A stretch of DNA of 64,000 nucleotides from Sulfitobacter sp. F26204 (GTDB lineage Bacteria; Pseudomonadota; Alphaproteobacteria; Rhodobacterales; Rhodobacteraceae), in the NCBI RefSeq assembly GCF_026410305.1, contig NZ_JAPMLQ010000001.1, forward strand, positions 682,001 to 746,000. Direction: 5' to 3'. Shown here piece by piece: positions 55,466-58,159 of the stretch. Made by a program: the position numbers and the translations under genes. Within the stretch, counting starts at the first letter, position 1, and each line of letters starts with the position of its first letter. The notes below the pieces were generated by a model. That model made no database searches, had not been told where the DNA came from, and saw only the letters and a list, made by a program, of their open reading frames with translations.

Positions 55466-55984
55466 ATGAAACGTACGATCCTTTTGCACCCCGACCCGCG
55501 GCTCAAGAAATTGGCCATGCCTGTTGCCGATCTGAGCGACGAATTACGGCTGTTGGCCGATGATATGATGCGTACGATGTACGAGGCCCCCGGCATCGGG
55601 TTGGCTGCACCCCAGGTTGGCGTGCTGGATCGCCTTATCGTGCTGGATTGTGTTAAGGAGGAAGGCGAAAAACCGCGCCCTCTGGTGATGTTCAATCCGG
55701 TCATCAAGGCATCTTCGGAAGAGTTGAATACCTATGAAGAAGGCTGTCTGTCCCTGCCGGATCTCTATGCCGATGTGACGCGACCCAAAGTCGTTGATGT
55801 CGAATGGATGGATCGAAACGGCAACCCACAGGCCGAAACCTTTGACGGATTGTGGGCCACCTGTGTTCAGCATGAAATCGACCATTTGGACGGCAAATTG
55901 TTTATCGACTATCTAAAGCCGCTCAAGCGCCAAATGATGACGCGCAAAATGGTCAAGCTGAAACGCGAGCTGGCGCGCGGATGA
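55466..55984 (+). CDS. def: Peptide deformylase, first gene (complete motifs)
   Basis: A 172-aa zinc/iron hydrolase that removes the formyl group from nascent proteins. All three motifs are intact: GIGLAAPQ (43-50), EGCLS (92-96) and QHEIDH (H136, E137, H140). Start at the ATG at 55466 (MKRTILLHPDPRLK), not the upstream frame. Its stop overlaps the next gene by ATGA. First of three in tandem. Confidence 0.95.
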   Translation: MKRTILLHPDPRLKKLAMPVADLSDELRLLADDMMRTMYEAPGIGLAAPQVGVLDRLIVLDCVKEEGEKPRPLVMFNPVIKASSEELNTYEEGCLSLPDLYADVTRPKVVDVEWMDRNGNPQAETFDGLWATCVQHEIDHLDGKLFIDYLKPLKRQMMTRKMVKLKRELARG

Positions 55985-56478
55985 CTGTTTTGAAGATTGT
56001 TTTGTGGCCTGATCCGCGGCTGGCCGAGACCTGCGCGCCTATTGCCGAAATTACGCCCGACATCAAAACCCTGGCGGCGGATATGCTCGAAACAATGTAT
56101 GCGGCACCGGGCCGCGGACTGGCGGCACCGCAAGTCGGGGTAATGCAGCGCATGTTTGTCATGGATACAGGCTGGAAAGAGGGTAAATCCGATCCACTGG
56201 TCTGTATTAACCCGATGCTGCAAGAGGTCAGCGAAGACAGGGTGGACAACGATGAAGGCTGTCTCAGCATTCCCGGCGTCCAGGCGCGGATCAGCCGTCC
56301 TGCTCAGGTACGGATGGTCTGGACCGGATTGAACGGTGCTCGTTATGTCCAGAGTTTTGACGGTTTTGCTGCGACTTGCGTTCAACATGAGCTGGATCAT
56401 CTGGACGGGGTGGTGACCTTTGACCATCTGGCGGCAGAGGATCGTACCGCCCTGATTGCGGAGTATTATGGACGATGA
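55981..56478 (+). CDS. Peptide deformylase, second gene (variant motif 1)
   Basis: A 165-aa deformylase. Metal and catalytic residues are kept: E92-G-C94-L-S96 and H136-E137-L-D-H140. Motif 1 is GRGLAAPQ (44-51), with Arg45 where Ile/Val is usual. It probably has activity, but the substituted residue lines the substrate pocket edge, so specificity may differ. It is coupled by ATGA to both neighbours. Confidence 0.9.
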   Translation: MTVLKIVLWPDPRLAETCAPIAEITPDIKTLAADMLETMYAAPGRGLAAPQVGVMQRMFVMDTGWKEGKSDPLVCINPMLQEVSEDRVDNDEGCLSIPGVQARISRPAQVRMVWTGLNGARYVQSFDGFAATCVQHELDHLDGVVTFDHLAAEDRTALIAEYYGR

Positions 56479-56972
56479 CACAGCGTAAAATTCTCCAGTG
56501 GCCGGATAAGCGGCTGCGGACCAAAGCCCAGGAAGTGACAGAAATCAACGATGAAGTGCGGGCGATTTGGGATGATATGATCGATACCATGGATGCCATG
56601 CCTGGTGTGGGTCTTGGCGCGCCGCAGATCGGGGTGATGTTGCGGCTGGCGGTGGTCGATGCCTCGTCCGACCGCAATAAACGTATCCGCATGGCCAACC
56701 CCATGGTGATCGAAGCATCGGCCAGGGCGAACGAACATGAAGAGGCCAGCCCCTGTTTGCCGGGTGTTTCGGCCAGGATCACGCGACCACGCGCGGTTTC
56801 AGTGCGTTACCTGAACCAGGACGGAGTGATCCAGCGCGGCGAATTTGTCGGGCTGGAAGCGACCAGCGTTCAGCATCAGATCGACCATCTTGATGGCAAG
56901 ATGTACTTTGACCATCTCAGCAAGACCAAACGTGACATGTTGCTGCGCAAGGCGCGGAAATTGAAAGGGTAG
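56475..56972 (+). CDS. Degenerate peptide deformylase-like protein, third gene
   Basis: A 165-aa protein with the deformylase fold pattern: GVGLGAPQ (44-51). In motif 2, EASPCLPG (90-97), the metal-binding Cys position is Ser92, with a Cys two places on. In motif 3, QHQIDH (133-138), the catalytic Glu is Gln135; both metal His remain. It is therefore unlikely to deformylate. The reading frame is intact and coupled to the two active genes, so it is kept by selection. fmt follows by 31 bp. Confidence 0.88.
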   Translation: MTQRKILQWPDKRLRTKAQEVTEINDEVRAIWDDMIDTMDAMPGVGLGAPQIGVMLRLAVVDASSDRNKRIRMANPMVIEASARANEHEEASPCLPGVSARITRPRAVSVRYLNQDGVIQRGEFVGLEATSVQHQIDHLDGKMYFDHLSKTKRDMLLRKARKLKG

Positions 56973-57003: not shown

Positions 57004-57918
57004 ATGCGTATCGTTTTTATGGGCACGCCGGACTTCTCGGTTCCCGCTCTGGATGCCTTGGTCGCGGCCGGGCACGAGATTGCCGCCGTCTATTGCCAAC
57101 CACCGCGCCCTGCGGGCCGTGGCAAAAAGCCCCGCCCCACACCGGTCCATGTCCGCGCAGAGGCGCTGGGCCTTGCCGTGCGCCATCCGGTTTCGTTGAA
57201 AACCGCCGAAGCCCTGCAGGATTTCAAGAACCTTGAATCGGAGGTTGCGGTTGTGGTCGCCTATGGGTTGATCCTGCCGCAATCGATTCTGGATGCGCCT
57301 GAAATGGGGTGTCTCAATATCCATGCCAGCCTCTTGCCTCGATGGCGGGGGGCCGCACCGATCCATCGGGCGATCATGGCGGGCGATGAACAAACCGGTG
57401 TCTGCATCATGCAGATGGAGGCGGGTTTGGATACCGGGCCTGTCCTGATGCGGGTCGAGACCGCGATCGGCGCGGAAGAAACCACAGGGCAATTGCATGG
57501 CCGGCTGAGCGAAATGGGGGCGGCAGCGATTGTCACAGCACTTTCCGGTCTGGGAGAACTTGAAGCGCATCCGCAGGCGACTGAGGGTGTGACCTATGCC
57601 AGCAAGATCGACAAGGCGGAGGCAAGGATCGACTGGACCCGTCCGGCTGTCGAGATCGATCGTCTGATCCGCGGGCTGGCACCCTTTCCGGGGGCCTGGT
57701 TCGAACTGGATGGCACACGTGTCAAGGCGCTTGGCGCGCGGTATAGCGCAGGATGCGGGGAACCAGGCCAGGTGCTGGACAGCGGGTTGCGCATTGCCTG
57801 CGGAAGCGGAGCGGTCCAACTGACCCGCTTGCAACGTGCGGGAAAGGCAGCGCAGGATACTGAGGTGTTTCAGAGCGGTGCACAGATTGCAGCAGGCACA
57901 CTGCTGAACGGAGATTGA
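57004..57918 (+). CDS. fmt: Methionyl-tRNA formyltransferase
   Basis: A 304-aa enzyme that formylates Met-tRNA for initiation. [19 protein letters not shown], then [22 protein letters not shown] and the GLDTGPVLM loop with 10-formyl-THF contacts; the C-terminal Formyl_trans_C domain begins near residue 205. It overlaps the frame of a short downstream gene slightly. Clustered with three deformylase-type genes, as often seen for def-fmt. Confidence 0.97.
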
Positions 57919-57922
57919 CGCG

Positions 57923-58159
57923 ATGTTTTTGGTCCTATTTGGTACGGTCGTCATTGCAGGCATCATTGGCTATGCCTCGGAAAAGACCGGCTGGACACAT
58001 AATGGCTATCTGCAATCCATCATCATCTGTGTGGGCGGCGCATTCCTGTTTTATTTCATCCGCATCATGTTCGGCTTCGGCTTTGCCTCTCCCGGTGTCA
58101 ATGCGATTGTATCTTCCATCGGGGCGTTGATCATCGTGCCGTTTCACTGGCGGCGCTGA
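57923..58159 (+). CDS. Small membrane protein (possible GlsB/YeaQ-like)
   Basis: A 78-aa protein with two or three hydrophobic segments (VLFGTVVIAGIIGYASEKTGW; SIIICVGGAFLFYFIRIMF; VNAIVSSIGALIIVPFHW). Start ATG at 57923 preceded by GGAG (in CGGAGATTGACGCG). It follows fmt by 4 bp. Only the Gly-rich two-helix pattern suggests the GlsB family; the name is tentative. Confidence 0.65.
   Translation: MFLVLFGTVVIAGIIGYASEKTGWTHNGYLQSIIICVGGAFLFYFIRIMFGFGFASPGVNAIVSSIGALIIVPFHWRR

Follow-up and report, generated by a model that had tools for sequence, protein, structure and literature searches.

What would keep a third peptide deformylase (PDF) gene in a bacterium when the encoded protein has lost residues central to deformylation? 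The question arises at positions 55466 to 56972 of the 64,000-nucleotide stretch of Sulfitobacter sp. F26204 DNA analyzed here (the window), where three tandem PDF genes on the plus strand are followed by fmt (Table 1). A preliminary description had proposed a three-gene PDF array with ATGA at both joints, upstream of fmt, and the coordinates bear this out, with joints at 55981 and 56475 and the start of fmt at 57004. Since that start lies 31 bases past the def3 stop, def3 and fmt do not overlap in the window. A PF01327 profile search of the 4.24-Mb genome (27 contigs) returned only three matches, Def1, Def2, and Def3; Def2 and Def3 of the window are 45% and 46% identical, respectively, to Def1.

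Table 1. Coordinates of the PDF array and adjoining features in the window
Feature	Position	Strand	Description
def1	55466..55984	+	172 aa; canonical PDF with all motifs and a basic C-terminal helix
def2	55981..56478	+	165 aa; PDF paralog; Arg45 in motif I (E. coli Ile44); Trp insert after E. coli position 63; no basic C-terminal tail
def3	56475..56972	+	165 aa; predicted pseudo-deformylase; Ser92-Pro93 for Cys-Leu, Ser131, and Gln135 as replacements; Gln51, His134, His138, and basic C-terminal helix kept
ATGA overlap, def1/def2	55981..55984	+	Read from sequence
ATGA overlap, def2/def3	56475..56478	+	Read from sequence
def3 codons 92-94	56748..56756	+	Ser-Pro-Cys; rewritten motif II
def3 codon 135	56877..56879	+	Gln replacing catalytic Glu
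fmt	57004..57918	+	Methionyl-tRNA formyltransferase, 3' of the array; PF00551 and PF02911

Directly after fmt, at 57923-58159, lies a 78-aa open frame that apparently encodes a small membrane protein; a Pfam search at E 0.01 gave no match for it. Besides fmt, genome G000 carries a second full-length Formyl_trans_N match (C20:942356-942898, locus L326) and two partial ones, perhaps other formyltransferases such as purN.

PDF clusters of this kind have been described before. According to the main text of Lamberioux et al. (2025, PMC12690207), 98.1% of Rhodobacterales reference species have clustered PDF genes and 62.5% have three, and the rationale for the clusters is called "elusive"; the window array is of the same kind. 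The portions of it consulted make no mention of the third member as a uniform rewritten clade or of a second member with Arg44 and no tail.

We evaluated whether Def3 belongs to the PDF family at the level of profile and predicted structure. Against PF01327 (Pep_deformylase; cutoff, 22.8 bits), Def1, Def2, and Def3 score 178, 165, and 147.1 bits, and the window Def3 also exceeds the cutoff of TIGR00079 (131.1 versus 103.95), as do 8 of 8 further Def3 proteins; this NCBI equivalog model would thus name all nine tested Def3 proteins "peptide deformylase." The best AlphaFold2 (AF2) model of Def3 has a pLDDT of 91.5 (82.5 to 90.8 for the other four), with a C-terminal helix at residues 150 to 164; Def2 was modeled at 97.1. 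All 50 listed PDB matches to the Def3 model are PDFs, led by Burkholderia and E. coli enzymes, with TM-scores by query of 0.82 to 0.91. The model, which contains no ligands or metals, supports the prediction that Def3 has a PDF fold with a C-terminal helix (type 1B fold). Def3 shares with E. coli PDF (type 1B) this fold (4az4; TM-score, 0.90), Gln50, His132, His136, and the basic C-terminal helix, but lacks Cys90, Leu91, and Glu133.

The replacements at the catalytic center are uniform. Residues were counted in E. coli numbering in 121 Def3 proteins, leaving out a contig-end fragment of <60 aa from genome G098; motif III sites were counted in 120, since Def3 of genome G147 ends before that motif. 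The metal-ligand Cys90 is Ser and Leu91 is Pro in 121/121, and Cys129 is Ser and the catalytic Glu133 of HExxH is Gln in 120/120. Gln50 is kept in 121/121, as are both His132 and His136 in 120/120. E. coli structures indicate that the backbone NH of Leu91 helps to bind the formyl oxygen, an NH that proline removes, and deformylase catalysis needs Glu133 as general acid-base. Position 92 is Asn in 108 of the 121 proteins, Cys in 12 (the window's copy included), and His in 1, and Trp31, Met41, and Ala73 further mark the group (99 to 100%). Among named sequences sampled separately (the best 80 of 584 matches), Ser90, Pro91, Ser129, and Gln133 were each found in 80/80; since Ser129 and Gln133 were written into one of the two search patterns, the counts free of bias here are those for Ser90 and Pro91. 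Entropy is zero at all four replaced sites (P = 0.0005), and in each of 20000 draws random sites were less conserved than the motif core, the reverse of decay. As the changes are invariant across the family, chance is excluded. A misregister of motif II was considered and rejected, as Glu88 and Pro94 flank the motif without gaps in the window.

PDF metal ligands are a Cys and two His (PMC5591237, in the portion consulted). The preliminary description had noted that the third gene lacks the metal Cys (Ser92) and the Glu (Gln135) and keeps both His, all of which stands; to this list we add Pro93, Ser131, Ala91 (in place of Gly), Gly48 (where motif I has its first Ala, kept in 107/121 orthologs), and Cys94, two residues past Ser92 and after Pro93. 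Together, the replaced residues strongly argue that Def3 is inactive as a deformylase.

The methionine pocket is largely kept. Over the positions that we take to form the S1' set (44, 45, 86, 88, 91, 125, 128, 129, and 132), Def3 departs from Def1 at 86, 91, and 129 and resembles it at the other six. The set is marginally more conserved in Def3 than random sites (P = 0.05). With positions 86, 91, and 129 changed, the affinity of Def3 for formyl-Met (fMet) may be altered.

To learn how widely this protein occurs, we used Def3 to search 149 genomes of the window's family, fetched 120 loci for gene calling, and checked again 28 genomes with few or no matches. Wherever the genes were read on one strand, their order is def1-(def2)-def3-fmt. 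Def3 is present in 122/149, the window's genome included. The 27 genomes in which it was not found are scattered over the tree: 21 have Def1 only, 2 have Def1 and Def2, and 4, with completeness of 76 to 91%, yielded no PDF at all. Def2 is patchy (67/149), and 57 loci hold Def3 without Def2. All nine genomes sampled from the window's genus have Def3; the preliminary description had looked to close relatives for loss of the third copy, and retention holds in these nine, whereas across the family it is interrupted by the 27 absences. No listed Def3 match in the family and order searches has an internal stop. In a tree of def1 plus fmt with 150 rows (128 family rows with fmt of >250 aa, 108 with and 20 without Def3, and 22 outgroups), the distribution of Def3 requires 14 changes, of which starred branches impose 6 or more, and that of Def2 requires 32; because 21 of the 147 inner branches are starred, both counts are rough. 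Presence in all nine genomes of the genus, absence from 27 family genomes, and repeated changes suggest that Def3 is useful but dispensable.

Def3 appears to be confined to the family. The 149 genomes drawn for an order search all proved to be from the same family, and 146 have a Def3-level match (245 to 314 bits, versus at most 196 for other PDFs listed). A search of 289 genomes of the class found Def3-level matches in only 4, all from the window's family, with the next best at 191 bits, and a search of 299 genomes of the phylum found them in 15, all from the family, among the matches listed. Spread by transfer was rejected: outside the family, none of the 285 class genomes, nor any phylum genome among the matches listed, has a match at the Def3 level. 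PDF residues were read for the best 26 class matches outside the family, and in none of these does a PDF gene lie between def1 and fmt (24 have both genes and 2 have def1 only). Among plasmid records, 990 have a match, one of them more than 60% identical (67.5%, on a 1.58-Mb Pseudorhodobacter replicon; next listed, 43%); the 156 phage records with a match are all below 60%, with 8 listed at 38 to 39%. The closest named relatives in the 584-match search are labeled Sulfitobacter (79% identity), and by these names the window's family belongs to the Rhodobacterales treated by Lamberioux et al. A record titled Nocardioides marinus (JAHVJD010000009.1, locus L189) holds a Def3 at 73% identity and is perhaps mislabeled or contaminated.

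Def3 sequences also evolve under constraint. Mean dN/dS is 0.18 for Def1, 0.22 for Def3, and 0.41 for Def2, as estimated by the Nei-Gojobori method over 211 overlapping, nonindependent pairs with dS of 0.05 to 1.2 and partly saturated. Across the same 64 loci, mean pairwise identity is 0.715 for Def1, 0.684 for Def3, and 0.50 for Def2. In an 80-row tree, from which five long-branch rows were left out and in which 20 of 26 outgroup rows were used, Def3 and Def2 each form one clade with support of 100/100; the Def3 stem measures 1.35 changes per site, and branches within Def3 are of the same order as those within Def1. Placing Def2 and Def3 as sister clades in the 80-row analysis gives a p-AU of 0.50, which neither rejects nor establishes that grouping. 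In a 97-row tree, Def2 and Def3 are again single clades (support, 99 and 100). The view of the third gene as a retained, predicted inactive copy is upheld by the invariant replacement of Cys and Glu, by purifying selection, and by the lack of internal stops in listed matches; the roles suggested for it in that description (binding of N-formyl peptides, regulation, or quality control) stand as hypotheses and are taken up below. That Def3 is instead a functionless, decaying duplicate is hardly tenable and was disfavored as an explanation: its scattered absences would fit, but its dN/dS close to that of Def1, its invariant replaced residues, and its uninterrupted frames in the listed matches do not.

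If Def3 no longer deformylates, its C terminus may indicate where it acts. E. coli PDF contacts the ribosome through L149, K150, R153, K157, K160, and R163 (main text of PMC12690207). The mean net charge of the C-terminal tail is +8.0 in Def1 (n = 145), +6.6 in Def3 (n = 120), and −0.8 in Def2 (n = 67). All 120 scored Def3 proteins have Lys or Arg at positions 150, 157, and 160, residues that are mostly lost in Def2; the 23S-contacting position 163 is basic in 46/121 aligned Def3 proteins. Since the basic tail is kept in Def3 and lost in Def2, a loss that adds to the preliminary description, Def3 looks ribosome bound by sequence and Def2 does not. Met153 in place of Arg is usual in family Def1 and Def3, and the uL22 residue matching E. 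coli Glu52 is Gln in 30/30 family uL22 proteins (the window's own genome plus the 29 read from 30 relatives sought). This pairing does not discriminate, because both residues are also common in other Alphaproteobacteria (Met153 in 21/26 Def1 proteins and uL22 Gln in 16/26 loci, with 3 unread).

The other two members of the array retain their catalytic residues. The description of the first gene as having all deformylase motifs is confirmed by Def1 proteins of the family, in which Gln50, Glu88, Cys90, His132, Glu133, and His136 are all kept in 145/145 copies. In Def1, Tyr or Phe replaces E. coli Arg97 in 144/145 family copies and in 26/26 class matches read; as R97Y raises actinonin resistance in Vibrio cholerae (main text of PMC12690207), Alphaproteobacteria may be less actinonin sensitive by ancestry. 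Def2 of the window has Arg45 within GRGLAAPQ, and throughout its clade Arg occupies E. coli position 44 (67/67, and 46/46 in a second sample), with the six catalytic residues kept in 66/67, in agreement with the earlier reading of a second gene that keeps metal and catalytic residues alongside Arg45. In AtPDF, the residue equivalent to E. coli Ile44, Ile42, shows the largest side-chain movement when the S1' pocket closes around a ligand, which it also bonds through its backbone N (PMC3101196, in the portion consulted); given this role, the invariant Arg44 should alter the entrance of Def2. Def2 probably remains an active deformylase that works off the ribosome and has an altered S1' entrance. 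With its Arg44, Trp insert, missing tail, and faster evolution, it is a second changed PDF that merits its own study.

The reading that best joins the frozen center, the kept tail, and the lost chemistry is that Def3 binds fMet nascent chains at the ribosome without cleaving them. We read Def3 as a predicted pseudo-deformylase that is maintained rather than decaying. In the model, which we put forward tentatively, it would have arisen by tandem duplication of def in an ancestor of the window's family. A burst of change would have removed the Cys90 ligand, the neighboring Leu91 (replaced by Pro), and the general acid-base Glu133, after which the new center would have frozen, leaving in place the fold, Gln50, both His residues, a large part of the methionine pocket, and the basic ribosome-docking helix. 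Def3 would then dock at the ribosomal exit like Def1 and hold the emerging fMet end uncleaved, thereby tuning the rate of trimming by Def1 on selected chains or marking unfinished chains for quality control. Several observations weigh against this model: the absence of Def3 from 27 family genomes; Cys94 of the window, at a site that is Cys in 12/121, as a possible substitute ligand; the marginal conservation and three changed positions of the S1' set; and position 163, basic in a minority of Def3 proteins. It has also been argued, in the main text of PMC12690207, that imperfect motifs do not prove inactivity.

Alternatively, Def3 might be a regulatory partner that joins Def1, Def2, or Fmt in a heteromer and so governs their activity or stability, while binding no nascent chain. 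The genes of the array overlap: an N-TGA overlap occurs at 55/63 Def2-Def3 junctions and 36/114 Def3-fmt junctions of fetched relatives. Moreover, Def2 and Def3 co-occur, Def3 being present in 64/66 Def2-bearing loci versus 57/78 loci without Def2 (Fisher P = 6e-5, with loci counted as if unrelated). Against such a partnership, many loci have Def3 and no Def2, type 1B PDFs are generally monomers, and a surface contact would not need a frozen catalytic center. We consider this explanation possible but unlikely.

Def3 could instead be an active enzyme with changed chemistry that acts on another N-terminal acyl group, using, for example, a different metal bound by Ser and the two His residues or a Ser-His dyad without metal. 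The invariance of both His residues, Gln50, Ser90, and Pro91, with Asn92 nearly so, fits this proposal, and alternative cofactors have been speculated on for type 3 PDFs (main text of PMC12690207). However, Glu133 is Gln and Cys90 is Ser in every ortholog examined, and the Leu91-to-Pro change removes a backbone NH, so that we regard changed chemistry as improbable.

Nor does it seem at all likely that Def3 and Def2 together defend against natural PDF inhibitors, with Def2 as a less sensitive enzyme and Def3 as a sink. In favor of this proposal, an accessory PDF gives V. cholerae actinonin resistance, PDF-inhibitor gene clusters are reported in Vibrio (both from the main text of PMC12690207), and Def2 is fast evolving and patchy. 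Hydroxamates, however, chelate the metal, and Def3 is without its Cys ligand; a sink also needs no invariant altered center.

Type 3 or inactive accessory PDFs with substituted motifs and weak or no activity are described from Staphylococcus aureus, Streptococcus pneumoniae, Archaea, and trypanosomatids, and in some bacteria an inactive or weak accessory PDF stands beside an active one (PMC12690207 and PMC5591237, in the portions consulted). Their substitutions fall in motifs I and II (PMC12690207), and they have no conserved C-terminal length (PMC5591237); in Def3, by contrast, the changes lie in motifs II and III, motif I is mostly intact, and the basic C-terminal helix is conserved. Compared by description, Def3 fits type 3 as defined in PMC5591237 (at least one crucial residue substituted), whereas under the main-text definition of PMC12690207 it fits in motif II only. 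Like Def3, V. cholerae Def2 is an accessory type 1B PDF in which Met153 replaces the ribosome-contacting Arg153, but it has been shown to be active (main text of PMC12690207), while Def3 lacks the catalytic residues. Clustered PDFs in Rhodobacterales and inactive accessory PDFs in Gram-positive bacteria and as type 3 are thus already known. The third member as one uniform rewritten clade and the second as a uniform Arg44, tail-less clade did not turn up in print among the literature matches listed. Among those matches, which excluded subscription papers and supplements, no paper describes an inactive Rhodobacterales PDF; a literature search for "peptide deformylase" with "pseudoenzyme" found no paper, and a term search of the main text of a Rhodobacter sphaeroides Tn-seq study found no def, fmt, or deformylase.

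A bolder version of the preferred model, in which Def3 holds fMet ends uncleaved, connects it to protein degradation. Working in E. coli, Piatkov et al. (2015; PMC4745127, in the portion consulted) postulated an fMet/N-recognin that is ribosome associated, binds fMet, and competes with PDF, with FtsH as the protease, acting directly or via an unknown recognin. These are the properties that a dead, ribosome-docking PDF would have. Def3 could conceivably be a ribosome-docked fMet reader derived from an eraser, capturing chains that Def1 left untrimmed and passing them to quality control, although we think this a long shot. Such a reader would amount to a bacterial fMet/N-recognin peculiar to this lineage, of the type that work proposed but did not identify. 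The recognin was postulated from E. coli, whereas Def3 was seen only in the window's family and has no known protease partner.

Although deformylation is essential and serves as a drug target, most of the family members sampled keep a nonstandard PDF, Def3, that is fixed in one form. PDF counts and automatic names therefore overstate the number of active deformylases. Def3 offers a concrete, testable lead on the unexplained PDF clusters and is a candidate bacterial reader of formyl-Met.
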